A stretch of 21,765 bases of DNA from Candidatus Tectimicrobiota bacterium. Its GTDB lineage: Bacteria > JACPSX01. Position 1 is the stretch's first letter, and each line of letters opens with the position of its first letter. Positions 718 through 17,480 of the stretch are shown in pieces. The DNA is taken from contig JACPSX010000092.1 of assembly GCA_016193065.1 (NCBI GenBank), positions 1-21,765 of the forward strand, read 5' to 3'. The translations under genes were made by a program, and so were the position numbers. The notes under the pieces are model-generated. The model saw only the letters and a program-made list of their open reading frames with translations, ran no database searches and was not told the DNA's origin.

Positions 718-2574
718 TTGAGGATCAAGGGGTTTCATCAGAGCTTACGCTTCAAGGCAACTGCGGGGATCGTGGTGGCCGTCGTGGCCATCATGTCGAT
801 CTTCTACAGCTTCCAGGTTTTCGCCTTCCGCAACGAACTCATCAAGAACCTGAGGGACTCCAGCACCCACTACCTGAGCGATGTCATCAAGGGGAGCCTC
901 AAGCACGCCATGATCAACCGGGATCTGGGCGAGGCCCGCTACATCATCGAGACGGTCGGCAAACAACGGGGTGTGGACAACATCTTCCTGGTGGACAAGC
1001 GCGGAGAGATCATGATGTCCCCGGAGATGAGGAGGGTCGGGGAAATCCTCAACCTGAACGACTACACCTGCCAGATCTGCCACCAGTTCAGCCCCGAGGT
1101 GCGAAACAAAACCGTTATATATAAGGAAGAGAACGGCCAGCGCATCTTCCGCAACGTGAACCCCATCTTCAACGAGCCCGAGTGCTACGGCTGTCACAGC
1201 CCCCTGACCAAGGTCAATGGCGTCCTCATCACCGACTTCTCCATGGCCGACATTGAAAAGCAGATCGCCACGAAATTCAAAGAGGTTCTCCTGTCCATGG
1301 GGTTGATGATCATCACCTCGGTGATCGTCCTAAGCTTTTTGCTGAACCGCCTGGTGATCAACCGTCTGGAAAAGCTCGTGGGTCTCACGAAGTTCTTCGG
1401 TAAGGGGGATTTCGACAAGAAAGTTACAGGGGAAGGAGAAGACGAGATCGGTGTCCTGGCCGAATCCTTCAATGAGATGGCCGGCGCCCTGAAGCGCTCC
1501 ATCGAGATCCGGGACAAGAAAGAGCTTCTGGAGCGGGTGCTCGGCAACGTGCGCGAGTCCATCATCGTCATGGACCCCAACGGCACCATTCTCTTCTTCA
1601 GCCACGGGGCCGAGGAGATGCTGGGTTACGGCGCTCTGGAATTGACCGGTGAGCCGTACTCCTCCCGGGGAGAGGCGCAGGGTCAGGTCTGGAAGAGCGT
1701 CGAACGGGAGGGCTCCTTCCGGGGCGAGATCCAGCTTCTGCGCAAGAGCGGAGGAGCCTTCCCCGCCTTCGTGAACGTGAGCCATCTGCGAGACGAGCAC
1801 GACCACATCCTGGCCTACGTCGACATCACCTACGACCTGACCGAGGAGAAGAGCCGGGAATCCCTGCAAAAGCAGCTCATCCACTCCGAGCGCCTGGCCG
1901 CCACGGGGCAACTCGCCGCCGGCGTCGCTCACGAGATCAACAACCCCCTGGGCAACATCCTGCTTTACTCCAAGCTGGTCCTGGAGGAGATCTCCCCTCA
2001 GGACCCTCATTACAAGAACATCAACAAGATCGTGGACAACGTGGTGCGCAGCAAGAAAATCGTCTCGGACTTGTTGGATTACACCCGCAGCAGCGACACG
2101 GACAAGAAGCCTAACGATGTGAACCGGATCGTCCAGGCCGCCAACAGCATTCTGGCCAACGAGATCCGGATTAATAATGTGGAGTGCCACCTGCGCCTGC
2201 AGTCCGATCTCCCCCCGGTCATCTGCGACCGCAGCCAGATCCAACAGGTTCTGGTCAACGTCATGCAGAACTCCATCCAGGCCTTCCAGGCCGGAGGACG
2301 GATCGAGGTGATCACCCGGGCTCCGGATCCGGACTGGGTCGTCGTGACGGTCAGGGACAACGGGCCCGGCATCCCCAAGGCCCTGCAGTCCAAGGTGTTC
2401 GAACCCTTTTACACAACCAAGGACAATGGCACGGGTCTTGGCCTCTCCATCTGTTACGGGATCATTCAGAGGCACGGGGGGCACATCTGGATCGAAAGCG
2501 GCAACGGCGAGGGAGGGACGGCGGTGGTCTTTCGACTGCCGGTGGCGGCCAGCGTGGCTGCGGCACCCGTATAG
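718..2574 (+). CDS. Membrane sensor histidine kinase with two haem-c motifs, HAMP and PAS domains
   Basis: This 618-residue sensor kinase should autophosphorylate and pass phosphate to the regulator encoded 12 bp downstream. Domains in order: first membrane helix about residues 16-36; extracytoplasmic sensor about 37-185 with CQICH (C118, C121, H122) and CYGCH (C156, C159, H160); second helix about 190-210; HAMP about 210-262; PAS about 270-375; HisKA with H405 in the motif AHEINNPLGN; and an ATPase domain with an N-box (NVMQNSIQAF), G1 (DNGPGIP) and G2 (GTGLGLSI). The CxxCH pairs imply covalent haem c outside the membrane, so the signal may be redox state or a haem ligand; that is inference. 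The start is TTG at 718 with only a weak upstream AGG, so the exact start is uncertain. The family assignment is secure. Confidence 0.93.
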   Translation: MRIKGFHQSLRFKATAGIVVAVVAIMSIFYSFQVFAFRNELIKNLRDSSTHYLSDVIKGSLKHAMINRDLGEARYIIETVGKQRGVDNIFLVDKRGEIMMSPEMRRVGEILNLNDYTCQICHQFSPEVRNKTVIYKEENGQRIFRNVNPIFNEPECYGCHSPLTKVNGVLITDFSMADIEKQIATKFKEVLLSMGLMIITSVIVLSFLLNRLVINRLEKLVGLTKFFGKGDFDKKVTGEGEDEIGVLAESFNEMAGALKRSIEIRDKKELLERVLGNVRESIIVMDPNGTILFFSHGAEEMLGYGALELTGEPYSSRGEAQGQVWKSVEREGSFRGEIQLLRKSGGAFPAFVNVSHLRDEHDHILAYVDITYDLTEEKSRESLQKQLIHSERLAATGQLAAGVAHEINNPLGNILLYSKLVLEEISPQDPHYKNINKIVDNVVRSKKIVSDLLDYTRSSDTDKKPNDVNRIVQAANSILANEIRINNVECHLRLQSDLPPVICDRSQIQQVLVNVMQNSIQAFQAGGRIEVITRAPDPDWVVVTVRDNGPGIPKALQSKVFEPFYTTKDNGTGLGLSICYGIIQRHGGHIWIESGNGEGGTAVVFRLPVAASVAAAPV

Positions 2575-2586
2575 AGGGAAAAGTTC

Positions 2587-3969
2587 ATGGAACTGCCCCG
2601 CAAGCGCATCCTGATCGTGGACGACGAGGAAGACACCCGGGACGCCTGCACCCAGGCCCTCAAGAAAGAGAACTACGAGGTTGTGACCTGCAGCAACGGC
2701 TTCGAGGCCCTCGAGCGCTTCCGGACGGATGCTTTTGACATTGTCGTGGCCGACATCAAGATGCCCAGGATGAGCGGCATCGAGCTCCTGAGATCCCTCC
2801 ACAAGATCGATCCCCAACTGGCGGTCATCATGATCACGGGTTACGCCGACGTGGACACGGCAGTGGAATCCATGCGGGAGGGGGCCGTGGACTACGTCCC
2901 CAAGCCCTTCACTCCCGACGAGCTGCGGCTGGTGATCAAGAACGCACTGGAGCGCCAGCACCTCCTTCAGGAAAACCGGGCTCTCAAGGAAGCCCTGCGC
3001 CGTTCGGTGAATGCCGGGGAGATCATCGGCGAGAGCGAGCCCATCCAGAAAGTCCGCCAGCTCATCGACAAGGTGGCCGGCACCGACTCCACAGTTCTCA
3101 TCCTGGGGGAAACGGGAACCGGCAAGGAGCTCGTGGCCCGCCAGATCCATCAGAAGAGCAGCCGGGGCAACAGCCAGTTGGTGGTCGTCAACTGCGCCGC
3201 GATTCCGGCCGATCTTCTGGAAAGCGAGCTTTTCGGCCACGAGAAGGGCGCCTTCACGGGGGCCCTGCGCCGCAAAAAGGGGTTCTTCGAGCTGGCCGAC
3301 GGCGGCACCCTTTTCCTGGACGAGGTGGGGGACATGAGCGTCGATCTGCAGTCCAAGCTCATGCGGGCCTTGCAGGAGAGGGAGATCCAGCCCGTGGGGA
3401 GCGAGCGCAAGGTCTACGTGGACGTGCGCATCGTGGCGGCCACCAACCGGGACCTGAAGGACGCCATCCGCCGCGGCACTTTTCGGGAAGACCTCTACTA
3501 CCGCCTGAACGTCATGCCGATCGTGCTCCCTCCCCTGCGGGAGCGGCCGGGGGATATTTCCCTGCTGGCCGATTATTTTCTCGGGAAGTACAACGCCGAT
3601 CTGAAAAAACGAGTGAGAGGGTTCACCCCGGGGGCCCGCGCCCTTCTGGAAAGCTACCCGTGGCCCGGAAACGTCCGTGAGCTGGAAAACGCCGTCGAGC
3701 GAGCCGTGATCCTCAACGAGGGGGAGATGATTACGGTGGACAGCTTCAGCCAGCTCAGCAGCGAAGCGGCGCCCGCCTCAGCGGCTGCAGGAGATGGGGC
3801 CAAGGAAGTGAACCGATACCCCTCTCTCAAGAAGGTCGAGCAGGACTACATCCTCGAGGTGCTGCAGGCCACCCGCTGGAACCGCAAGAAAGCTTCCGAG
3901 ATCCTCGGGATCAGCACCGTGACCCTGTGGCGCAAGATTGAGGAGAGACAAAAAGACATTAAAGAATGA
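2587..3969 (+). CDS. NtrC-family sigma-54-dependent response regulator
   Basis: This 460-residue cytoplasmic transcription activator is the likely partner of the preceding kinase. An N-terminal receiver domain (about 1-120) has the acidic pair D12/D13, phosphoacceptor D56 (VVADIKMP) and the conserved lysine in PKPF. The central AAA+ domain (about 140-370) has Walker A GETGTGKE from G174, the sigma-54-contacting GAFTGA motif at residues 221-226, and Walker B GGTLFLDEVGD. The C-terminus carries a Fis-type helix-turn-helix (ASEILGISTVTLWRKI). Length and layout are normal for AtoC/ZraR-like regulators. The promoter at 4091-4106, just downstream, has the -24/-12 form this protein class activates, so the operon from 4141 is its probable target. 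TGAAA at 3967 and TTTCA at 3992 form a weak inverted pair that might be a binding site. Confidence 0.95.
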   Translation: MELPRKRILIVDDEEDTRDACTQALKKENYEVVTCSNGFEALERFRTDAFDIVVADIKMPRMSGIELLRSLHKIDPQLAVIMITGYADVDTAVESMREGAVDYVPKPFTPDELRLVIKNALERQHLLQENRALKEALRRSVNAGEIIGESEPIQKVRQLIDKVAGTDSTVLILGETGTGKELVARQIHQKSSRGNSQLVVVNCAAIPADLLESELFGHEKGAFTGALRRKKGFFELADGGTLFLDEVGDMSVDLQSKLMRALQEREIQPVGSERKVYVDVRIVAATNRDLKDAIRRGTFREDLYYRLNVMPIVLPPLRERPGDISLLADYFLGKYNADLKKRVRGFTPGARALLESYPWPGNVRELENAVERAVILNEGEMITVDSFSQLSSEAAPASAAAGDGAKEVNRYPSLKKVEQDYILEVLQATRWNRKKASEILGISTVTLWRKIEERQKDIKE

Positions 3970-4140: not shown

Positions 4141-4572
4141 ATGAACGGATTGATGGATCTCCTCGGGAAAAAGTTCTTCTCCAGGGGCAGCGGCGATACG
4201 GGAAGGCCGGAGGTCCGGCGCATCCTGCTCGTTCACAACGAGCAGGACCAGTGCGAGTCCCTCACGGACTTCCTGGAAGAGGAAGGCTACCGGGTCTCCC
4301 GCACCCGCCAGGGCCGCAAGGCCGTCTCCATGGTTCTCAACGGAGGAGTGGACGCGGTCATCATCAAGGGGAAGCTGCTGGATCTTTCCGGATACGAAGT
4401 AGCTTCCATCGTGCGCCGGCTCGACCCCGAGATCCGTGTGATTCTCACTGTGGGCGACGAGTCGGAACTTTACGGTGGCGAAAGAGAGCAAGTGGATTTC
4501 TTCCCGTGCCTGCTCGAACCCTTCCAGCCGCGCCAGATTTTGCGGGCCCTGGAGGGGGGCGCACAGAAATAG
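4141..4572 (+). CDS. Degenerate receiver (pseudo-receiver) protein
   Basis: This 143-residue cytoplasmic protein has a CheY-like receiver fold at about residues 26-140. The usual chemistry is missing: the acidic pocket reads H32-N33-E34 instead of two aspartates, the phosphoacceptor position is K76 (AVIIKGKLLDLSGYEV, where DxxxPxxxG is normal), and the switch lysine of the KPF motif is glutamate (LLEPF). It is therefore unlikely to be phosphorylated and may act as a protein-interaction module. I chose the ATG at 4141 because AGAGGAAGGG lies just upstream; the in-frame GTG at 4090 would place the start within the sigma-54 promoter. It is the first gene of the respiratory operon, an unusual place for a receiver. 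Its role is unknown. Confidence 0.8.
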   Translation: MNGLMDLLGKKFFSRGSGDTGRPEVRRILLVHNEQDQCESLTDFLEEEGYRVSRTRQGRKAVSMVLNGGVDAVIIKGKLLDLSGYEVASIVRRLDPEIRVILTVGDESELYGGEREQVDFFPCLLEPFQPRQILRALEGGAQK

Positions 4573-4581
4573 GAGCGGGCC

Positions 4582-5037
4582 ATGAATCGACGAGCACTGC
4601 GTCTGCAACTGAAAATCGGCGCCGTCGCCGGTGCCGCGGCCTTTCTCTTCGTGGGAGTTCCCTGGGGAATATTTTACGGGGGCTCCTTCGGCCTGCTCTC
4701 GGCGGTCAGCATCATGGGCTCCCCCTTGCCGGAGCGCAGCGTCGTCACCCTCTTCGTGATCGGCGGCATGGCCCTCGGCGTGGCCGCGGCCTGCCTCTTC
4801 TGGCTGGCCGTAGGCTCCCTGGTCGCGCTGGCCGTGGGAACCGTCACCAAGCATCTCGTCAACAAATCCCTGGAGAGGATCGACTCGCGGGAAACTCTCG
4901 ACTCTGCAGATTCCTCCGGGCCCACCCCCTTCATTATCGGGCTCAGGACTGTGCAGCACTTCTTTTCCTCTGAGGACACCCCAAGGGTTCAGAGTCCTGC
5001 GGAGACCATGAAAGGAGGAACCGGTGACCTGGCTTAA
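4582..5037 (+). CDS. Membrane protein with two predicted helices, unknown function
   Basis: This 151-residue protein starts at an ATG preceded by AGGAGCGGGCC. Hydrophobic stretches at about residues 12-45 (rich in Gly and Ala, possibly a helical hairpin or a helix plus re-entrant segment) and 56-87 predict inner-membrane insertion. The C-terminal third (about 95-151) is hydrophilic and probably cytoplasmic. I do not recognise a family. It sits between the pseudo-receiver and the Fe-S subunit, and its 3' end overlaps the next small gene by 14 bp, so it is co-transcribed and probably translationally coupled. An assembly or accessory role for the respiratory complex is plausible inference only. 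Confidence 0.75.
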   Translation: MNRRALRLQLKIGAVAGAAAFLFVGVPWGIFYGGSFGLLSAVSIMGSPLPERSVVTLFVIGGMALGVAAACLFWLAVGSLVALAVGTVTKHLVNKSLERIDSRETLDSADSSGPTPFIIGLRTVQHFFSSEDTPRVQSPAETMKGGTGDLA

Positions 5038-5146
5038 ACTCTTCTTGATGTACGGCGGAATCTTGTTTGCGGTGGCGCTGTTTGCCGCCTGGAGCTGGCA
5101 CGCATCCGGCGGGCAGGGGAAGAACCTTTCTGAAAAAGGGAAGTAA
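5024..5146 (+). CDS. 40-residue single-pass membrane peptide
   Basis: A GTG at 5024 opens a 40-codon frame ending in TAA at 5144-5146. AAAGGAGG at 5011-5018, six bases upstream, is one of the strongest ribosome-binding sites in the operon, and it lies inside the end of the preceding gene. The peptide begins MTWLKLFLMYGGILFAVALF, giving one hydrophobic helix at about residues 4-24, followed by a short polar tail rich in Gly and Lys. The next gene starts two bases after the stop. Small single-helix subunits are common in membrane oxidoreductases, so a structural subunit of the NrfD-containing complex is a reasonable guess. I do not recognise a family. Confidence 0.7.
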   Translation: MTWLKLFLMYGGILFAVALFAAWSWHASGGQGKNLSEKGK

Positions 5147-5148
5147 TC

Positions 5149-5754
5149 GTGGAAGGTAACGGCTCCCGCAAGAAAGGCAAACGCTACGCCATGCTCATTG
5201 ACTTGAGGCGCTGCCTGGGCTGCCACTCCTGCGCGGTGGCCTGCAAGAGTGAAAACGACGTTCCCCTGGGAGTCTACCGGACCTGGGTCAAGATCGTGGA
5301 GAAGGGGTCCTACCCCAACGTGCGCCGGGTCTTCGTCCCCAGCCTGTGCAATAACTGCGAGCGCCCCGTGTGCCTGAGCGTGTGCCCGGTGAAAGCGACT
5401 TACCGCAGGCCTGACGGCATCGTCATGATCGACGAGCACCGCTGCATCGGCTGCAAGTACTGCATGGCCGCCTGCCCTTACGATGCCCGGCACGTGAACC
5501 CGATCAAGAAGATCGTGCAAAAGTGCTACTTCTGCTTCCACCGGGTGGACGCCGGGCTGGTTCCGGCCTGTGTGAACACCTGCCCCGGCGGGGCCCGCGT
5601 GTTCGGTGACGTGAACGACCCCGAAAGCGAGATCTCCCGCCTGATCGCCACGAACCCAGTCCAGGTCCTCAAGCCCGAGAAGGGGACCGAGCCCCGGGTC
5701 TACTACATCGGACTCGATGAGATGGCCGCCAAGGCAAAGGTAGAGGAAGCCTGA
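5149..5754 (+). CDS. Electron-transfer Fe-S subunit of a PSR/DMSO-reductase-type complex, four [4Fe-4S] clusters
   Basis: This 201-residue protein starts at GTG, with AAGGGAAG upstream. It carries sixteen cysteines in four ferredoxin-type sets: C22/C25/C28/C32, C67/C70/C75/C79, C99/C102/C105/C109 and C126/C129/C141/C145. This is the standard arrangement of the PsrB/PhsB/TtrB/NrfC family. It should relay electrons between the NrfD-type membrane subunit and the molybdopterin subunit. It has no signal peptide of its own; in this family the subunit usually crosses the membrane bound to the Tat-exported catalytic partner encoded at 7678. It is separated by one base from the next gene. The family is certain; the exact enzyme is not. 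Confidence 0.93.
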   Translation: MEGNGSRKKGKRYAMLIDLRRCLGCHSCAVACKSENDVPLGVYRTWVKIVEKGSYPNVRRVFVPSLCNNCERPVCLSVCPVKATYRRPDGIVMIDEHRCIGCKYCMAACPYDARHVNPIKKIVQKCYFCFHRVDAGLVPACVNTCPGGARVFGDVNDPESEISRLIATNPVQVLKPEKGTEPRVYYIGLDEMAAKAKVEEA

Positions 5755-5755
5755 G

Positions 5756-6655
5756 ATGATCGAAGTCCAGACGATTTACAACGTCCCTTACGGAGAGGCA
5801 TTGGGGGTCCCCATCGCCGTCTACTTTTACCTCACGGGTCTCAGCGCGGGCTCCTTTATCCTGTCCACCCTGGCCTACGGTTTCGGCATGGCCAGGTACA
5901 AGCCCCTGGGGAAGATCGGCGTCGTGCTGGCAACCCTGCTCCTGGTCGTGGCCCCCGTGAACCTGATGATCGACCTGGAGCAGCCCTGGCGCTTCTGGGA
6001 GCTCTTCTACTACATCAACCTCACTTCTGCCATCTCCTGGGGCTCGTTCCTGCTCACCCTCTACCCGATCAACTGCGTGATCTACGGCACCTTCATGTTC
6101 ATGGGAAAAGCCCGGCTCACGAAAATTTTTGGTCTCATCGGCATCCCGCTGGCCCTGTCGGTGCACGGCTACACGGGCTTCATCCTGGCCCTGGCCAAGG
6201 CCCGCATTTTGTGGAACACGGCCTTGATGCCTTTCATCTTTCTGGTGTCGGCCATGGTTTCCGGAATCGCCATGATGATCCTGGTGGCGATCGTCCGGGA
6301 CAAATACTTCAGCGCCGAGCGCAAGATTAACATGGACCTCATCAACGGCCTGGTGGTCATGTTGATCGGATCCATCGTGGCCGATCTCACTCTGATCGGC
6401 ACGGACATCCTCGTTCTTTTGAACTCCCACGACGAAGCCTACGAGGCCGCGCAACTGATCCTCACAGGGGCCTTCCGAAATATCTTCCTGGGAGGCGAGA
6501 TTTTCCTGGGGGCGCTGATCCCCCTGGCTCTCTTGAGCAACCGCATCACCCGGACTCCCTTTGGCATCACGGTGGCCTCGGTCCTGGTCATGATCGGAAT
6601 TTTCGCCATGCGCTACACCATGGTGATCGGCGGACAGGCGATTCCCCAACATTGA
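5756..6655 (+). CDS. NrfD/PsrC-family quinone-interacting membrane subunit
   Basis: This 299-residue protein has about eight hydrophobic helices spread over its full length and the family-typical start (EALGVPIAVYFYLTGLSAGS) followed by a conserved turn with LEQPWRFWELFYY. NrfD/PsrC proteins anchor the Fe-S and molybdopterin subunits and exchange electrons with quinol or quinone in the membrane, sometimes with proton translocation. The ATG at 5756 follows the stop of the Fe-S gene by one base, so the two are translationally coupled. Length is normal for the shorter eight-helix PsrC type. Nothing in the sequence separates quinol oxidation from quinone reduction. Confidence 0.92.
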   Translation: MIEVQTIYNVPYGEALGVPIAVYFYLTGLSAGSFILSTLAYGFGMARYKPLGKIGVVLATLLLVVAPVNLMIDLEQPWRFWELFYYINLTSAISWGSFLLTLYPINCVIYGTFMFMGKARLTKIFGLIGIPLALSVHGYTGFILALAKARILWNTALMPFIFLVSAMVSGIAMMILVAIVRDKYFSAERKINMDLINGLVVMLIGSIVADLTLIGTDILVLLNSHDEAYEAAQLILTGAFRNIFLGGEIFLGALIPLALLSNRITRTPFGITVASVLVMIGIFAMRYTMVIGGQAIPQH

Positions 6656-6682
6656 GCTATAAACCACGCAAGGAGGAACTGA

Positions 6683-7675
6683 ATGATGGAATCGAGTACC
6701 AAGCAAGAGATCCGGCGCGCTGCCAAGAGACAGCAGGATGAGTTTGAGGCCCAGAAGATCCGGGCCGGTACACTGCGCCCGAATCTCCTCTCGGCCACCT
6801 TGTTTATCCTATGCGCCCTGGCGGGAGTGGGGGCGTTCGTCCTCACCAACAACCCGATCCCCACCGGGATCCTGCTGGTGGCGGGCGTGTTCATCCTTCT
6901 GGCTCTGAAGGTCGCAGCTCAGTGGGAGCGGGCTATCGTCCTGCGCCTGGGGAGATTCCACCGGATGGCGGGCCCGGGACTTTTCATCATTTTTCCCTTG
7001 ATCGACACGATCCCCTACTGGATTGACCTGCGGCTAACCGCTACCGGCTTCCGGGCCGAGGAAACCTTGACCAAAGACAACGTCCCCGTGGACGTGGACG
7101 CCGTCTGCTTCTGGAAAGTCGTCAACCCTGAAAAAGCGGCACTGGAAGTCACCGACTACTACGACGTGATCAGTTGGGCATCTCAGACGGCTCTGCGGGA
7201 TGTGATCGGCAAGAGCGAGCTCTCCGATATGCTCGTGGGGCGTGAGAATATCGACGAGCAGATCAAGAACCTCATTGACAAGCGCACCGACGGCTGGGGC
7301 CTTCAGGTCCTCTCCGTCGAAATCCGGGACGTGATCATCCCGGCCTCTCTCCAGGACGCCCTGTCGATCCAGGCCCAGGCAGAGAGAGAGCGTCAGGCCC
7401 GGGTTATCCTCGGACGATCGGAGACTCAGATTGCCCAGATGTTCGCCGAGGCAGCCGAATCCTACAAGGATAATCCCACGGCCCTTCACCTGCGAGCCAT
7501 GAACATGCTCTACGAAGGCCTCAAGGAGAAGGGCTCCATGGTCATCGTTCCGAGCTCGGCCGTAGAGACCATGGGGCTGGGAGCTCTCATGGGAGTGACC
7601 GCTCTCAATAAGATCACCAACGGCGGCAACGATGAAAAGACGGACGGCAACGGCAGCCATCCAGCGAGTGAATAA
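6683..7675 (+). CDS. SPFH/band-7 protein of the slipin (stomatin-like) type
   Basis: This 330-residue protein follows AAGGAGG. Two adjacent hydrophobic segments (about residues 32-55 and 60-78) form a membrane hairpin. The band-7 domain (about 79-240) has the typical WERAIVLRLGRFHRMAGPGL entry, IDLR, the VPVDVDAVCFWKV strand and the QTALRDVIGKSELSDML helix. A coiled, Ala/Glu-rich stretch (about 235-280) and a hydrophilic tail follow. Slipins oligomerise in the inner membrane and are linked to membrane microdomains and protein quality control, often beside an NfeD gene, which is absent here. Placement between the membrane subunit and the catalytic subunit of a molybdoenzyme is unusual and suggests a scaffold or assembly role; that is inference. 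Confidence 0.9.
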   Translation: MMESSTKQEIRRAAKRQQDEFEAQKIRAGTLRPNLLSATLFILCALAGVGAFVLTNNPIPTGILLVAGVFILLALKVAAQWERAIVLRLGRFHRMAGPGLFIIFPLIDTIPYWIDLRLTATGFRAEETLTKDNVPVDVDAVCFWKVVNPEKAALEVTDYYDVISWASQTALRDVIGKSELSDMLVGRENIDEQIKNLIDKRTDGWGLQVLSVEIRDVIIPASLQDALSIQAQAERERQARVILGRSETQIAQMFAEAAESYKDNPTALHLRAMNMLYEGLKEKGSMVIVPSSAVETMGLGALMGVTALNKITNGGNDEKTDGNGSHPASE

Positions 7676-7677
7676 CG

Positions 7678-9936
7678 ATGATTGATCGCAGAGGGTTTAT
7701 CAAAGTTGGGGTCGGCGGGGCGGGAATGCTGGCCCTGGGGGAAATGCTCCCCCTGGCCAGCCTCGGCCAGGAGCTCAAGCCCGGGGGTGAGGGGGTCTCG
7801 CGCACCACGGGCAAGTCCCGGGTGGCTATCCCCAGCACCTGCTTTCAATGCGCGGCGGGCTGCGGCATCCTGGGCTATGTGGACACGAGCTCCGGGCGGC
7901 TGGTGAAAATCGAGGGAAACCCGTTGCACCCGAACAACCGGGGCAAGCTCTGCGCCCGGGGCCAGGCCGGCACCAATCTGGTCTCCAATCCGGACCGCCT
8001 CCTGTTCCCCCTCAAGCGCGCGGGCAAGCGCGGGGAGATGCGCTGGGAGCAGATTTCCTGGGAGCAGGCAATTCAGGAGATCTCGACAAAGCTCCAGGAT
8101 CTCAAGAAGAAAGGGCAGGCGGACCGCTTCATCCTGCAGGGAAATTTCAAGGCCAAGGAGAATGCCACGCTGAACTTCGTGCGGCGCTTCCTGCACGCCT
8201 ACGGAGCATCTTCGGACACGTTGGAAACTTCCCTGGGAGGCGCCAGCCGGGAAACTGCCTCGCTCCTCACCTACGGTGAAGACGTGGTGATTCCCGACAT
8301 CGGCCGCAGCAAGTACATCCTCAACTTTGGAGGCAATCCTTACGAGGCCTACCTTTTTCATCTGCCCCTCATCCAGCGCCTCAACGAGGCTCGCCTGAAC
8401 GGCGCCCGTCTGGTCACCTTCGACGTGCGCATCTCGAACACCTCGGGGCGCAGCGATGAGTGGTACCCGATCACTCCGGGCTCCGACAGCTTGGTGGCCA
8501 TGGCCATGGCCCGCACGATCATCGAGGAAGGACTGCACGACCGGGAGTTTTTAGAAAAGTGGACCAATTTCCCCCTGGTCCATCTGCGCCGCCACCTGGA
8601 GCCTTACACACCTGAAGCCGCCGAAAAGGTCAGCGGAGTGCCGGCAGCGGTGATCCGGCGGCTGGCCCGCGAGTTCGCCACCACCCGGCCGGCGGTGACG
8701 CTTACGGGACGCGGGGTTTCCATGCGGCAACAGGGAACACAGAACGAGCGCTGCATCGCGCTCTTAAACGCCGTGGTGGGCAACATCGACGTGCCCGGCG
8801 GCTCCTGTTTCCCCAGGCGGGCCGAGATCCCGGACCTTTCTCCAATGCCTTCCAAAACCGGCCGGACATCCCCCTTCCGCCACAACAACCTGTTCCCGGA
8901 CATTGCCCGAGGGAAGATCAAGGTCGGAGTCTACGTGGCCTACACTGCCAACCCCGTTTACGCCTCTCCCGACTCGGGGACCATTACCGAGATCCTCAAA
9001 AATGAGAGGCTCATTCCCTACTCGATCGCAGTGGACACGTTCATGAGCGAGACCGCGATCCTGTGCGACCTGGTGCTGCCCGACGCCACCTACCTTGAGC
9101 GCTGGGATCTGGAATCAGGCCCCAGCTTCGAGCTGGTCCCGTACGTGAGTTTGCGCCAGCCCCTTGTCGCACCTCCTCCCAAGGTAAAGCCATTTACCGA
9201 GGTGTGCCTGGAGCTGGCGCGCCAGATTCCCGGGGTCGAGCCGTTTTTCCCCTACCGGAGTTTCGAGGACTACCTGGAGAAGGTGGTGCAGAGGATCGAC
9301 GGCCTGGCCCGGGCCGGCGGGTTTGAAACCCTGAAGCAAAAAGGGGTGTGGTTTGACGAGAAGGCGAAACCCCGCTTCCGGCAGTACCGGGAAAAAGGGT
9401 TCAAGACCGCCTCGCGCCGCTTCGAAGTCTACTCCGAAGCCATGCACCGCCAGGGGTTCGCGGGCTTGCCCAGCTATGAGCCCGAAAAAAACGGGCGCAC
9501 GAACGGCCGCCTCATGCTCGCCACCTTCAAGGGGAACGTGCGCGGGGGCTCGCGCACCGCGCCCTGTAAATGGCTCGCCGAGATCCAGCACGACAACCCC
9601 CTGTGGCTCCATCCCCAAACGGCCGCGGCGCTGAACGTGCGCGAGGGGGATCGGGTGCACCTGAAGACGGCGAACGGCACGGTGACCCAGAAGGTGCGCA
9701 TCAGCCAGGGGGTTCACCCCCAAGTGGTCGCCTGCTCGGAAGGGTTCGGCCACTGGGGACACGGCCGCATTGCCCGGGGCAAGCGCTTCAAGAGCAGCGA
9801 CCCGGACACCCGTCTGGTCTGGTGGGAGGGGCACGGCAGCGGAGTGTATCTAAATGCCATCGTCCCTAAGAAAGAAGACCCGGTGAGCCAGGAATATGCC
9901 TGGATGGAAACCGAAGTCGAAGTAGCCAAAGTCTAG
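7678..9936 (+). CDS. Tat-exported molybdopterin (Mo-bisPGD) oxidoreductase catalytic subunit, PSR/PHS-like
   Basis: This 752-residue protein has a twin-arginine signal (DRRGFIKVGVGGAGMLALG), so it acts on the periplasmic side. The N-terminal [4Fe-4S] motif is C55-x2-C58-x3-C62...C92 (KLCARGQAG). The central molybdopterin domains and the C-terminal dinucleotide-binding domain (NPLWLHPQTAAALNVREGDR) are complete, and length is normal for polysulfide/thiosulfate-reductase relatives. The region that normally carries the Mo-ligating Cys or Sec instead reads LETSLGGASRETA (from L182), with serines (S185, S190) but no cysteine. The metal may be ligated by serine or by no protein side chain. The gene overlaps nothing, but its ATG lies two bases past the slipin stop. 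The substrate is unknown; sulfur compounds, oxyanions, or oxidation of an electron donor are all possible. Confidence 0.9.
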   Translation: MIDRRGFIKVGVGGAGMLALGEMLPLASLGQELKPGGEGVSRTTGKSRVAIPSTCFQCAAGCGILGYVDTSSGRLVKIEGNPLHPNNRGKLCARGQAGTNLVSNPDRLLFPLKRAGKRGEMRWEQISWEQAIQEISTKLQDLKKKGQADRFILQGNFKAKENATLNFVRRFLHAYGASSDTLETSLGGASRETASLLTYGEDVVIPDIGRSKYILNFGGNPYEAYLFHLPLIQRLNEARLNGARLVTFDVRISNTSGRSDEWYPITPGSDSLVAMAMARTIIEEGLHDREFLEKWTNFPLVHLRRHLEPYTPEAAEKVSGVPAAVIRRLAREFATTRPAVTLTGRGVSMRQQGTQNERCIALLNAVVGNIDVPGGSCFPRRAEIPDLSPMPSKTGRTSPFRHNNLFPDIARGKIKVGVYVAYTANPVYASPDSGTITEILKNERLIPYSIAVDTFMSETAILCDLVLPDATYLERWDLESGPSFELVPYVSLRQPLVAPPPKVKPFTEVCLELARQIPGVEPFFPYRSFEDYLEKVVQRIDGLARAGGFETLKQKGVWFDEKAKPRFRQYREKGFKTASRRFEVYSEAMHRQGFAGLPSYEPEKNGRTNGRLMLATFKGNVRGGSRTAPCKWLAEIQHDNPLWLHPQTAAALNVREGDRVHLKTANGTVTQKVRISQGVHPQVVACSEGFGHWGHGRIARGKRFKSSDPDTRLVWWEGHGSGVYLNAIVPKKEDPVSQEYAWMETEVEVAKV

Positions 9937-9946
9937 GGAGAAAAAA

Positions 9947-10513
9947 ATGAACCTTCACATCCCTCACCGCTGGCGCGGTCCTATCCTCCTGGGAGGAGTG
10001 GCCGCGGTGGTTTTCGGCATAGTCGGTACTCTGTCCCTGATCCGCTACTCCTCCGGCAACCCCAGCTTCTGCCTGACCTGCCACGGCCAGGGACCCACCG
10101 CGCTGGCCGTCTCCAACACGGGGCATACTGCCAAGATCCCCTGCATCGGCTGCCACGGCAAGGCCAAGTTCCCCATCGCCCAGGGCTTCCCCCAGAGCTT
10201 CTCAGCAGACCCCGCGGACGTGGATAAGAAGTGCCACAGTTGCCACAAAGAAGTGGGAGATGGCGAGCCCCGGGTCATGCGAGCAAATGTACAAGGGATC
10301 AACATCCCCCACAAGCTCCACGTGAGCGGCATGGGAGTCGCCTGCGTGCAGTGTCACGTGAACATCGCCCACGACGCCAAGGCCCAGCCCACGAACCGGC
10401 CTCCCATGGCGGTCTGTTCCAGTTGCCACAATGTCCAGGAAAAATGCGATAGCTGTCACCGCAAGGAGCCCACGGCCATGGCTCCGGCAGGCTCAGGCGG
10501 ATCGGCGGGGTAG
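9947..10513 (+). CDS. Membrane-anchored hexahaem cytochrome c
   Basis: This 188-residue protein starts at an ATG after GGGAG. An uncleaved N-terminal helix (about residues 11-32, preceded by basic residues) anchors it with the bulk in the periplasm, as in NapC/NrfH-like cytochromes. Six CxxCH motifs begin at C42, C66, C96, C133, C157 and C167; further histidines (H60, H122, H125, H142) could be distal ligands. It closes the operon and probably carries electrons between the NrfD/Fe-S/molybdopterin complex and a periplasmic partner. The tail after the sixth haem is a short Ala/Gly/Ser stretch. The last 30 or so codons reappear in two repeats at 14245 and 17306. The exact cytochrome subfamily is uncertain. 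Confidence 0.9.
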   Translation: MNLHIPHRWRGPILLGGVAAVVFGIVGTLSLIRYSSGNPSFCLTCHGQGPTALAVSNTGHTAKIPCIGCHGKAKFPIAQGFPQSFSADPADVDKKCHSCHKEVGDGEPRVMRANVQGINIPHKLHVSGMGVACVQCHVNIAHDAKAQPTNRPPMAVCSSCHNVQEKCDSCHRKEPTAMAPAGSGGSAG

Positions 10514-13611: not shown

Positions 13612-13800
13612 CTACGGATGTACCATCCAACTGATGAATCGTAACTGTATATCCGGCTTGCCTGGCCCGATGCCGCTTGCCGCGCATTCCGCTTGCGAAA
13701 TCATATTCGGCACGCATCCCGTTATCTTTCCTTCGGGCCGCGTTAGGCGGTACTTTAGGAAGCGCCGGGCCTTGTGGATCAAGCCTTTCCGTTCAATCAT
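13612..13800 (-). pseudogene. HEPN-domain toxin, truncated after about 16 residues
   Basis: The frame begins MIERKGLIHKARRFLK, the usual start of HEPN proteins paired with MNT nucleotidyltransferases (normally continuing with SAELLL..., about 130 residues, and the RxxxxH active site). After K16 (near 13753) the sequence changes to an unrelated, low-complexity translation that stops at 13612. The catalytic part is therefore lost. Its ATG overlaps the MNT stop as ATGA (13800-13797), as in a working operon. Confidence 0.65.
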
Positions 13801-14153
13801 GCGGCCTTACCTTCCCGGCGCACGTTGCGCCAGAAAGGGCCGTCGCCGTTCTTGAAAGTCCGTTCATGTACGGGGAGAACCGACAGGAGCACTCCGTATC
13901 GCAGGTTAAAATCGGCCAGCAGGTCGGCAATCCGGTCAATCTCTTTTGAAGGCCGGATCTCCCCCCGCAGGATCAACAAAAGGTCAACGTCTGATTCATC
14001 GTGAGCCCGACCGCGGGCCTGGGAGCCATAAAACCAGAGGTTCACAAAGTTTCCCCCATATCGTTCTTTGAGTGCATGCGCAAGCTCCCGAAGAATCTCC
14101 TTGAGAGATGGCCGGCTACTCTTCACGTGCCTGGATCTTGCCACAACAAGCAT
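13797..14153 (-). CDS. MNT-domain nucleotidyltransferase (antitoxin of a HEPN/MNT pair)
   Basis: This 118-residue cytoplasmic protein has the minimal nucleotidyltransferase signature GSQARGR (from G43) followed by SDVDLLLIL with catalytic-type aspartates D55 and D57. MNT antitoxins neutralise HEPN RNases, in characterised cases by adenylylating them. The frame looks intact and of normal length. A GTG at 14126 is an alternative start, since the run of G before the ATG at 14153 leaves no proper spacing. The HEPN gene that follows in the same operon is cut off, leaving this an orphan antitoxin. Confidence 0.85.
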   Translation of the reverse strand: MLVVARSRHVKSSRPSLKEILRELAHALKERYGGNFVNLWFYGSQARGRAHDESDVDLLLILRGEIRPSKEIDRIADLLADFNLRYGVLLSVLPVHERTFKNGDGPFWRNVRREGKAA

Positions 14154-14244
14154 CCCCCCCTAGTGATGATCACTTCCCAACACGATTCCCGCAGCCGTCC
14201 GTTCCCACATTCCAACGAGGAACAATCTGCGAACATAATCCTTT

Positions 14245-14419
14245 GAAACAACTCTATTTCCTTGTCCACGCAATGTCAAGGCTGATTACCGCGGCCCTCT
14301 GCGGAGGAACTATGTGCCGCCATTTCGGTGGTCACAACGTCCAGGAGAGCTGCAAGAAATGCCACCGCAAGGAGCCCACGGCCCTGGCCCCTGCGGCATC
14401 GGGCAGTTCGGCGGGATAA
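14245..14419 (+). repeat. Direct repeat copy A containing a cytochrome gene tail
   Basis: These 175 bp align without gaps to 17306-17480, about 85 percent identical by eye. The left half begins GAAACAACTCTATTTCCTTG and has no counterpart in the cytochrome gene. The right half matches the 3' end of the hexahaem cytochrome gene, including 21 identical bases (10458-10478, 14363-14383 and 17424-17444). With copy B it brackets the restriction-modification genes in direct orientation. Confidence 0.85.
14273..14419 (+). pseudogene. Cytochrome c tail fragment with one CxxCH (possible mini-protein)
   Basis: The ATG at 14273 opens 48 residues: MSRLITAALCGGTMCRHFGG, then HNVQESCKKCHRKEPTALAP and a short tail. 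From HNVQE onward it parallels the end of the hexahaem cytochrome (HNVQEKCDSCHRKEPTAMAP). The position of the cytochrome's fifth haem motif (CSSCH) reads HFGGH here, so one haem site remains. No signal peptide and no clear ribosome-binding site are seen. The frame, length and stop are the same as in copy B, so expression is not excluded, but a duplicated gene tail is the simpler reading. Confidence 0.55.
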
Positions 14420-14851: not shown

Positions 14852-15754
14852 TCACGGGTAGGGCCCAAGGAATCGTTCTCCGTTGAAATGGATCATGTGG
14901 TCAGGCGCGTCCGCAACCCACACCTCAGTTTCCCACACAATCTCCCCCAGGTACTTGAGCAGCCCACGACGATCGAGGAAGGCAGTCACGAAGACCAGCC
15001 CTGCTCTGCTGCCCGAGAAGAGGGACTTCAATTCTGACAACCGCTTTGGGTTCACCGGCCCGTGGCTCGTCACGGCCTCAACCACGACAAGCCAGTTCTT
15101 GTCCGTATAGCGCACCACGACGTCTGGCATCTTGCCGTGTTCCCGAACAACGACACTCAGTGAGCGTAAGCCGTCCTCATCGAAGTAGGCCCACTTTTTC
15201 TTTGTGTCTCCCACATATAATGGCCTCGCGCTTGGTGTAAAGCGGGGGCAGAACTCGTCGATGATTTGGCGGACAAGCGCATTCTGCCCACCGGGCGACA
15301 GATCAATCGTCACCCCAGCAGCGAGGACGAGAGGGATACGGCGCATGCTTCGGGCCTGGGCGTAGCGCTGGGCAAGCGTCCGAATGTCCACAAGGTAGCG
15401 CCTCAGCGCGGCAACCCATTTCGTAGTTCCGAAGGTCCGGATGACTGCGAGCGCATGTGGCTCGATCTGGTAGCAATAGTTCGGGCTGTTTGTGGGTCGG
15501 TCAGGCTCATCGGGATTCGCAACAACCAATCCTGCTTGTTCAAATTGATGGAGGGTAAACCGCCGAACGGTCTCGCGTGTGTTTGGTGCCCACTTCTTTC
15601 GGTAGTGCTTCGCTGCGAACTCCATAATGGGCGTTACTCCCATCATGGGATTTGCTGCCTCCGACCAAGCCTTCGTCGGTGTGAGATCGACGAGGGCCAG
15701 CAGAGTGAGGGCGGCGCGAGCGCAAACCCAGCGTGTCAACAACCACAGCGTCAA
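14852..15754 (-). CDS. BsuBI/PstI-family type II restriction endonuclease
   Basis: This 300-residue protein carries the family's N-terminal segment (TLLALVDLTPTKAWSEAANP, GVTPIMEFAAKHY, RPTNSPNYCYQIEP) and C-terminal nuclease domain: GKMPDVVV (P210, D211), WLVVVEAVTSHGPVNPKR (E226), RAGLVFVTAF and WETEVWVADAPDHMIHFNGE. The family cleaves CTGCAG in known cases; the site here is only inferred. The start is unclear: the frame opens at TTG 15754 inside the methylase frame, and the first 13 or so residues look non-native. It appears 20-30 residues shorter than PstI at the N-terminus. The catalytic domain looks complete, so activity is possible. Confidence 0.88.
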   Translation of the reverse strand: MTLWLLTRWVCARAALTLLALVDLTPTKAWSEAANPMMGVTPIMEFAAKHYRKKWAPNTRETVRRFTLHQFEQAGLVVANPDEPDRPTNSPNYCYQIEPHALAVIRTFGTTKWVAALRRYLVDIRTLAQRYAQARSMRRIPLVLAAGVTIDLSPGGQNALVRQIIDEFCPRFTPSARPLYVGDTKKKWAYFDEDGLRSLSVVVREHGKMPDVVVRYTDKNWLVVVEAVTSHGPVNPKRLSELKSLFSGSRAGLVFVTAFLDRRGLLKYLGEIVWETEVWVADAPDHMIHFNGERFLGPYP

Positions 15755-17231
15755 GCGCGTCCTGGCTCGGGATGTTGCCCCGGAGCTTACGCCCCAGTTC
15801 GATCAAGGCGGCCCTTGTCGGATAGCGGAGGGAGCGAAGGTCGGCGGCGTTGACTTGAGTATGGCCGTTGAACTGGCGGAAGTACATGTCGAGAGGCGAA
15901 GAATTCAGAAAGGCAGACAGGCCCCAAGCCAGCAACCGTTCAAGCGCTGCGCCATGCTCATGGAAGTAGTTGAGGTGATTCTCAAAGCCCACGGCTTCAC
16001 AGGCAACAATGCGATCATCGAAAACAGCAGCCACGACTCGACGGCGCTCCTCCTTCGCGGAAAAGCGCTTGACGAGCACATATATTCCGGAAGGGACCGT
16101 AAGTGCTGCGCTGCTGCTGTTGTAAACGATGGCATTCGCTTTCTTGGTCGTCGGCTTCGGCCACTGGACGCCGCCGCCGTCGAAGTGGGTGGGATGGATG
16201 AGCGGAACGGTGTCCGCGCCGGGCTGTGAACGCAGCCAGCGACGAGCGCGAAAGTCCACAACGCGACCGGTACTCACCTCCAGCCCTAGATCGTCCAGCG
16301 TGCAGGGGAGTCTCTCCATGGCGTCGGCGACGGCTTGACCCTCGCGATCTAGGACGAGATGTATGAACGCTTGGGCATCACCAGGCCGGACAACACGTCG
16401 AAAGGGGACGGCTCGCTCTACGACATTCTGGTCCTCAGGGGTGCGGCTCCAGGAGATTCGAACGGTGCGTTCCTGACGGACCCCCTTGACGCCGTGAAGA
16501 ATCACGTTTTCCTGAAGCACGTCGTCGTCACGGAAGGGGTCGTCCCGGGATTCGAAAACGTGAACCCTCCTCAGGTTGACGTTGCTCAGGAGGTGCCTAC
16601 GAAACGGTCGAAAATACGGTCCGTTGCAGAAGCTTCTTGGCGTAATGGCGACGAGCTCTCCCTCATCGTCCAAGAGCATGACGACGAGGGCAAGAAAGGC
16701 CGTGTAAAGGTTGCTCGTTTCTACGCTGACACGGCGGAGGAGTTGACGGGGGCGGGACTCAGCCCGAAACTTCTTGTACGGCGGATTGAGGATCGCCAGA
16801 TCAAAGGCCAGAGACTCGGTGGGAAAGAGGCCCTTGTCGAGAGCGCAGACAGCCGCTTCGATGAAGTCCTCTGCTCGCACCTCCCATTTGCAGGCTATGC
16901 CAACCTCGGCACACGCCCGCTCGCAGGCTGCTAATGTCTGCCGGAGTGGCGGCAGGAGGTCCTGATCTATCTCAAATGCAGTCAGAGCGACCTCCTCGGG
17001 ACGATGTGTGCGCGAGCATATTTCGGCCACCCAGGCTGCTGTCAGTGCTCCAGCTCCGGCGCCAGGATCAAGGAAACGAATGCGCTTACGTCGTGGATCG
17101 GCCAGGGAGGCCATGAAGCGGGCTGTCGTGGGAGGGGTGAAGAACTGCCCGAGGGTGCTTCGGCGCTTTGGATCGAGGGCGCGGCTAACTGCTCTCCTCG
17201 CCTTCTCAGCAGATACCAGTGGGTCCAACAT
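15540..17231 (-). CDS. N6-adenine DNA methyltransferase of a BsuBI/PstI-type system
   Basis: This modification enzyme should methylate adenine in the site cut by the neighbouring endonuclease. The ATG at 17231 follows CAGGGGCAAAC; a GTG at 17249 is less likely. From that start the AdoMet motif FLDPGAGAGAL lies near residue 55, the catalytic NPPY at 149-152, and a target-recognition domain follows. The family-like part ends at VVVDTLGL (about residue 503, near 15723), close to the 507-residue length of M.PstI. The frame then runs on for 60 residues that are just the endonuclease gene read in another frame. This suggests that the native stop was lost by a deletion. Confidence 0.88.
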   Translation of the reverse strand: MLDPLVSAEKARRAVSRALDPKRRSTLGQFFTPPTTARFMASLADPRRKRIRFLDPGAGAGALTAAWVAEICSRTHRPEEVALTAFEIDQDLLPPLRQTLAACERACAEVGIACKWEVRAEDFIEAAVCALDKGLFPTESLAFDLAILNPPYKKFRAESRPRQLLRRVSVETSNLYTAFLALVVMLLDDEGELVAITPRSFCNGPYFRPFRRHLLSNVNLRRVHVFESRDDPFRDDDVLQENVILHGVKGVRQERTVRISWSRTPEDQNVVERAVPFRRVVRPGDAQAFIHLVLDREGQAVADAMERLPCTLDDLGLEVSTGRVVDFRARRWLRSQPGADTVPLIHPTHFDGGGVQWPKPTTKKANAIVYNSSSAALTVPSGIYVLVKRFSAKEERRRVVAAVFDDRIVACEAVGFENHLNYFHEHGAALERLLAWGLSAFLNSSPLDMYFRQFNGHTQVNAADLRSLRYPTRAALIELGRKLRGNIPSQDALDAVVVDTLGLRSRRPHSAGPRRSHTDEGLVGGSKSHDGSNAHYGVRSEALPKEVGTKHTRDRSAVYPPSI

Positions 17232-17305
17232 GTTTGCCCCTGAATTCACCGGGAGGTAGCCCCATCAGCCCACCAAGAGTATAGGACGAAAGCCCCGCCT
17301 CATCT

Positions 17306-17480
17306 GAAACAACTCTATTTCCTTGCTTATTCAATGTCAAGGCTGATTACCGCGGCCTTCCTCGGAGGAACCATGTGCCGCTATTTCGGTGGTCACAACG
17401 TCCAGGAGAACTGCGAGAAGTGCCACCGCAAGGAGCCCACGGCCATGGCCCCATCGCCTCACGCCAAATCGGCGGGCTAA
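17306..17480 (+). repeat. Direct repeat copy B containing a cytochrome gene tail
   Basis: This is the second 175-bp copy, in the same orientation as 14245-14419 and aligned without gaps. Differences cluster in a 6-base block at positions 21-26 of the repeat and in the last 40 bases, while the central part is nearly identical. It starts 75 bp beyond the methylase start codon. Confidence 0.85.
17334..17480 (+). pseudogene. Cytochrome c tail fragment with one CxxCH, second copy
   Basis: Same 48-codon frame as in copy A: it starts MSRLITAAFLGGTMCRYFGG, continues HNVQENCEKCHRKEPTAMAP and ends KSAG. No frameshift or stop separates the two copies. Some differences are silent (ACT/ACC, AAA/AAG), others change residues. 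It has a single haem motif, no signal peptide and no evident ribosome-binding site. Confidence 0.55.

Follow-up and report, generated by a model that had tools for sequence, protein, structure and literature searches.

The window analysed here, a stretch of 21,765 nt, is a complete contig; the genome bin to which it belongs comprises 2.9 Mb and is 86% complete. It revealed a run of eight genes between positions 4141 and 10513, all encoded on the forward strand and overlapping or separated by no more than 27 nt, for a pseudo-receiver, a small membrane protein, a 40-residue peptide, a four-cluster Fe-S protein, an NrfD-type membrane subunit, a slipin, a molybdopterin-family (Mo-like) subunit, and a hexahaem cytochrome (Table 1). 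The initial annotation had described them as an unbroken operon, and all eight were indeed present in the claimed order and on one strand; the unit is longer than stated there, however, as two upstream regulatory genes, encoding a kinase and a sigma-54 activator, had been missed. The kinase gave a weak match to a haem sensor model in Pfam (PF21563) and is likely a haem-c redox sensor; kinases with two CXXCH motifs were also found upstream in the related loci L029, L034, and L149. Located 36 nt upstream of the ATG of the pseudo-receiver gene is a -24/-12-like sequence. Though matches with up to two mismatches occur in the window at about chance frequency, we read this one as a promoter because the gene for the sigma-54 activator adjoins it. 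Haem-sensing kinase and activator would together turn the operon on.

Table 1. Features of the operon and its upstream region, with the basis of each assignment
Position	Strand	Feature	Basis
718..2574	+	Sensor histidine kinase, HAMP + PAS + periplasmic domain with two CXXCH	Pfam HATPase_c, HisKA, HAMP, PAS
2587..3969	+	Sigma-54-dependent response regulator, receiver + AAA+ + Fis-type HTH	PF00158 (8e-74), PF00072, PF02954
4091..4105	+	-24/-12-like promoter TGGCACGCAACCTGC	One mismatch to TGGCAC-N5-TTGC
4141..4572	+	Pseudo-receiver	PF00072 (2e-12); alignment with intact receivers
4582..5037	+	Small membrane protein without assigned family; two to three helices predicted	Pfam and curated family models; helix prediction
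5024..5146	+	40-residue single-helix peptide	GTG start, strong Shine-Dalgarno, one predicted helix
5149..5754	+	Four-cluster Fe-S subunit, PsrB/QrcC-like	4Fe-4S dicluster PF13247
5756..6655	+	NrfD/PsrC-type quinone-binding membrane subunit, 299 aa, about 8 helices	PF03916 (2.6e-45), hydropathy
6683..7675	+	Slipin (SPFH) of 330 aa; two helices predicted in a long N-terminal extension	Band_7/SPFH PF01145 (2e-34)
7678..9936	+	Tat-exported molybdopterin-family subunit without Mo-ligating Cys (Gly187)	PF00384, PF01568, PF04879
9947..10513	+	Membrane-anchored hexahaem cytochrome c	Cytochrome c7 and c3 Pfam models; six CXXCH

For comparison with other loci, genes in relatives were called with a simple ORF script on sequences from incomplete genomes, and the genomes searched included one of the window's phylum, namely the window's own. 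The first gene product of the operon revealed H-N in place of the acidic pair of receivers, Lys in place of the phospho-acceptor Asp, and Glu in place of the switch Lys, so that all three signature residues are missing, as the designation pseudo-receiver in the initial annotation had implied. Receivers recur near operons of this kind, and stand-alone intact ones were observed 3' of the dodecahaem gene in L031 (position 6712) and L095 (position 14665). Neither the two-helix protein nor the 40-residue peptide matched any family in Pfam or among the curated models, and neither had a sequence homologue at E<1 in all collected loci. In the Chloroflexota locus L207, a two-helix protein of 96 aa without sequence similarity occupies the equivalent place, after a degenerate receiver and before the slipin gene. 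Of the small genes that had been expected in relatives, the two-helix one therefore has a positional counterpart, but the 40-residue gene is without a detectable relative. Its ORF starts 6 nt past a near-perfect Shine-Dalgarno sequence (AAAGGAGGAACCGGTG) and, because of this and the one predicted helix, is probably translated.

Among the solved structures, the best match of the Fe-S subunit was PsrB (2vpw_B, 2e-60). All 16 cluster cysteines as well as Tyr104 are conserved across relatives. Judged from its position within the motif, Tyr104 would be equivalent to Tyr113 of QrcC, a tyrosine between two cluster cysteines that is essential in Qrc (PMC13059093). The NrfD subunit displayed 8 to 9 hydropathy peaks. 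The hexahaem cytochrome, whose six CXXCH motifs are kept across relatives, weakly resembles ActA of alternative complex III (6lod_A, 8k9e_A) and NrfH. The homologous protein of L207 carries a fused class I (CBB3_III-type) cytochrome c domain, an indication of a small partner of the c type. Two downstream repeats of the cytochrome gene's 3' end (10417-10512) were observed, with 74-76% identity over 96 nt, within two longer copies (14239-14419 and 17300-17480) that are 85% alike over 181 nt. The repeats are interspersed with minus-strand genes, among them one for an Eco57I-type methylase (15540-17249) and one of nucleotidyltransferase type (13797-14153); the arrangement resembles an insertion of islands where the cytochrome gene ends.

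The Mo-like subunit carries a Tat motif (RRGFIK) at its start and has intact N-terminal 4Fe-4S cysteines. In an hmmsearch alignment, Cys173 of Thermus PsrA (2vpw), which we take to be the Mo ligand, fell on Gly187 of the window subunit, and the W-ligating cysteine of acetylene hydratase aligned likewise. This substitution, the most telling trait of the operon, had gone unnoticed in the initial annotation. We compared about 100 large-subunit relatives drawn from genome collections. A large group of them, sister to the clade of the window subunit, revealed a near-invariant Cys in the ligand column, typically within the motif NHTSICEGGKW. In the clade of the window subunit, comprising about 30 relatives from Nitrospirota, Nitrospinota, Thermodesulfobacteriota, Chloroflexota, Armatimonadota, and other phyla, this column never holds Cys, displaying G, E, Y, F, N, S, I, L, P, or H instead. 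Most of the 75 columns that show the same residue throughout the Cys clade and in PsrA are retained in the window clade, and those of PsrA Cys173, His215, and Arg332 are among the few that most or all of its members have lost; the window protein itself retains the equivalents of His215 and Arg332. Such conservation would be expected of a subunit in which fold and 4Fe-4S cysteines persist after a loss of the metal chemistry. Many large subunits of the Cys clade (L040-L080) carry Asp in place of their third 4Fe-4S cysteine (CCDC).

The operon had been taken to encode a PSR-like molybdoenzyme, which seems unlikely with the metal-binding Cys gone across the whole clade. A variant of that reading is an active enzyme of the PSR/PHS type that binds Mo without a protein ligand, as in arsenite oxidase, and uses the cytochrome as an extra electron outlet. 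Arsenite oxidase AioA is active without such a ligand, and since the window protein keeps the His215 and Arg332 equivalents and most of the conserved, probably cofactor-binding, residues, its sequence would allow for both cofactor and activity. The intact 4Fe-4S cysteines fit this variant as well, and so does the thiosulfate reductase PhsA as the closest curated family of the large subunit (345 bits). The PhsA cut-off of 694 bits was not passed, however, the ligand position varies freely within the clade, where His and Arg are also lost in most members, and loss of the Cys accompanies a cytochrome gene in two independent lineages. All in all, we regard an active molybdoenzyme as improbable and prefer a Mo-like subunit that may be without Mo activity.

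In the phylogenetic tree, the Cys-less window clade formed a single branch (30 rows, including one duplicate) with an SH-aLRT support of 96, and did so again with other sampling including two more Chloroflexota members (83/88), so that its support varies with sampling. The window subunit was placed as sister to that of L207 (support 99/98, 50% identity). QrcB proteins, which also lack the Cys, formed a separate branch (support 100), and constraining them together with the window clade was weakly rejected (AU p 0.03). As supposed in the initial annotation, the large subunit does not group within a characterised clade with an identical operon.

Likewise, its assumption that the cytochrome is part of the complex was supported by a multihaem gene recurring beside the Mo-like subunit throughout the clade. 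All members with enough sequence have a same-strand gene with at least four CXXCH motifs within about 5 kb, usually to nearly always directly downstream and encoding 5 to 21 haems. The Cys was lost separately in a second small clade elsewhere in the tree, made up of L161, L163 (6817-9234), and L166, each of which has a pentahaem gene directly downstream. Only two relatives with the Cys, L042 and L053, have a multihaem gene in that place, and the singletons L050 and L083 within the Cys clade are Cys-less with no cytochrome nearby. The link between Cys loss and cytochrome is strong by count and, with four independent pairs, not significant. In L163 and L166, the 4Fe-4S cysteines of the large subunit are gone too. 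As to other gene arrangements, several Thermodesulfobacteriota have the genes for NrfD, Mo-like subunit, and hexahaem cytochrome directly after ATP synthase genes (AtpZ-type, subunit a, and subunit c), as identified by Pfam in L152 (2342-4269) and by eye in L153, L155, L156, and L159. L015 (12200-14002) carries a receiver fused to a membrane-anchored 11-haem cytochrome, adjoining Rieske and cytochrome b genes and a Cys-less Mo-like operon.

The slipin displays the features of the SPFH/slipin family, i.e., a Band_7 domain, a membrane anchor (predicted helices), and stomatin matches (3bk6, 8e-41). Its role as a built-in part of the complex had been made dependent on its presence in the operons of relatives. 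There it does recur, across phyla, within such operons of five genomes from three phyla (the window, one of Chloroflexota, and three of Thermodesulfobacteriota); it is an optional part, though, as these five stand among about 31 known clade members, most of which have no slipin. The gene order in the Thermodesulfobacteriota locus L149 is kinase, regulator, heptahaem gene, Fe-S, NrfD, Mo-like subunit, slipin, and dodecahaem gene, and L029 and L034 revealed kinase, Fe-S, NrfD, Mo-like subunit, and slipin up to the contig end. In L207, degenerate receiver, two-helix protein, and slipin are followed by heptahaem, dodecahaem, Fe-S, NrfD, and Mo-like genes.

With identities of 65-91%, the slipins of these relatives fall into a single subfamily. 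Of 395 Thermodesulfobacteriota genomes, the three that carry the operon were the ones in which it was found; since two of them had contributed to the slipin profile, its absence from the others is the only fully independent part of this result. Further copies of this subfamily are located beside other NrfD or molybdopterin operons (L209, L210, and L215), and one, in L208, lies behind a kinase and a regulator at a contig end. The copy in L210 (472-5371; G079, contig C149) adjoins a molybdopterin/Fe-S/delta-chaperone cluster, and that in L215 (G078, contig C245) an NrfD/octahaem cluster near Rieske and cytochrome b-like genes. With about 35% identity to the Thermodesulfobacteriota slipins, the window slipin falls into a different subfamily. 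Its nearest relative found, with 53-55%, is in Armatimonadota (L104), where the surroundings, read in L123, contain no respiratory genes. With about 35% identity and positions on different branches, a single origin of the operon slipins was rejected on present data. Two unrelated slipin subfamilies in one kind of operon suggest recruitment for a function.

Slipin, pseudo-receiver, and small membrane genes might alternatively be passengers in the transcript that have no role in the complex. This would agree with the lack of a slipin in most clade members, with the different subfamilies of the window slipin and those of its relatives, and with a 40-residue gene that has no relative. On the other hand, L207 again combines receiver, two-helix protein, and slipin with the complex and also carries the sister of the Mo-like subunit; the relatives' slipin subfamily is confined to genomes with such operons among the 395 searched; and the occurrence of two subfamilies in the same kind of operon argues for selection. 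We therefore hold the passenger explanation to be doubtful, though worth keeping in mind. Slipin, pseudo-receiver, and small proteins would rather, and probably, provide a platform in the membrane for assembly or local clustering of the complex.

Since the subunit kinds are the same and the Fe-S tyrosine is kept, we infer a function like that of Qrc or alternative complex III, to which the initial annotation had given no thought, and a quinone-cytochrome c oxidoreductase with a structural Mo-like subunit and a slipin platform appears to us the probable product of the operon. Quinone bound at NrfD would be connected via the four clusters of the Fe-S subunit to the hexahaem cytochrome and from there to a soluble or oxidase-linked cytochrome. 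After the loss of Mo chemistry, the Mo-like subunit, which has a 4Fe-4S cluster of its own, may have persisted as the structural core that joins the Fe-S subunit to the cytochrome. The genome revealed four haem-copper oxidase hits and a true alternative complex III (ActB; contig C34, L022), and a search for NiFe hydrogenase gave no hit. Together with the cytochrome fusion in L207, this favours a flow from quinol to cytochrome c, without proving it, and we consider this direction somewhat more likely than the reverse.

Taken further, the data would describe a separate and widespread class of quinone-cytochrome c oxidoreductases derived from a polysulfide-reductase-type enzyme, which lost its Mo site and captured a multihaem cytochrome at least twice, independently of Qrc and complex III, and in several phyla has a dedicated slipin platform; we see the case for this wider proposal as evenly balanced. 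Annotation can easily mark the genes of the clade as those of polysulfide or thiosulfate reductases, which are then taken as evidence of sulfur respiration. If their Mo site is dead, that interpretation would be wrong for a whole multi-phylum clade, and another route between quinone and cytochrome would exist. Large subunits other than standard Mo/W-bisPGD enzymes have been described as going with a ten-helix NrfD (PMC6303296), a pattern that the proposed complex, if true, would contradict. The link with slipins offers a concrete system for asking what bacterial slipins do for respiratory complexes.

The initial annotation could name no described system with such a gene order, and our search of open-licence papers agreed with it, yielding neither an account of a slipin with NrfD or polysulfide reductase nor a Qrc-like complex of such make-up outside Qrc and alternative complex III. 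Compared to slipins paired with NfeD (p-stomatin), the window slipin has the SPFH fold in common but is not located beside NfeD, which adjoins the other slipin of the genome (contig C72, L124). With PsrABC and PhsABC, the operon shares A, B, and C subunits, Tat signal, and fold; it differs in the missing Mo-ligating Cys and in the additional multihaem cytochrome and slipin. Membership in PSR/PHS was rejected on the basis of Gly187 in place of PsrA Cys173 and of the PhsA model. Alternative complex III (ActABCDEF) would be similar in leading from quinone to cytochrome c and in having a Mo-less Mo-like subunit and a multihaem cytochrome. Its long ActB, however, unites Mo-like and Fe-S parts in one fused protein, and the complex contains a second NrfD (ActF), whereas the window has separate genes and one NrfD; membership was rejected with neither ActB fusion nor second NrfD in the operon and the true ActB located on C34.

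Closest in composition is QrcABCD. In Qrc, menaquinone receives electrons from cytochrome c, and the Mo-like subunit is devoid of cofactor (PMC6303296, PMC13059093); the complex consists of a hexahaem cytochrome c, a Mo-like subunit without Mo ligand, an Fe-S subunit, and a ten-helix NrfD subunit (PMC6303296). Both systems have a membrane-anchored multihaem cytochrome c, a Mo-family subunit without Mo ligand, a four-cluster Fe-S subunit, and an NrfD-type subunit, with the same periplasmic side. A true Qrc with extra genes, acting as menaquinone reductase, could be proposed from these four subunit kinds, but is hardly tenable and, as to membership, largely refuted: none of the curated models passed its cut-off (QrcB 195 of 440, QrcC 129 of 400, and QrcD 37 of 570 bits), the QrcB proteins form their own supported branch, the NrfD is short, with about 8 helices instead of 10, and the genome gave no NiFe hydrogenase hit. 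In addition, the window differs from Qrc in the intact Fe-S motif of its Mo-like subunit, in its slipin, pseudo-receiver, and small membrane genes, and in a clade spread over many phyla. Altogether, the comparison places the operon outside Qrc, alternative complex III, and PSR and supports the distinct quinone-linked complex proposed in the initial annotation.
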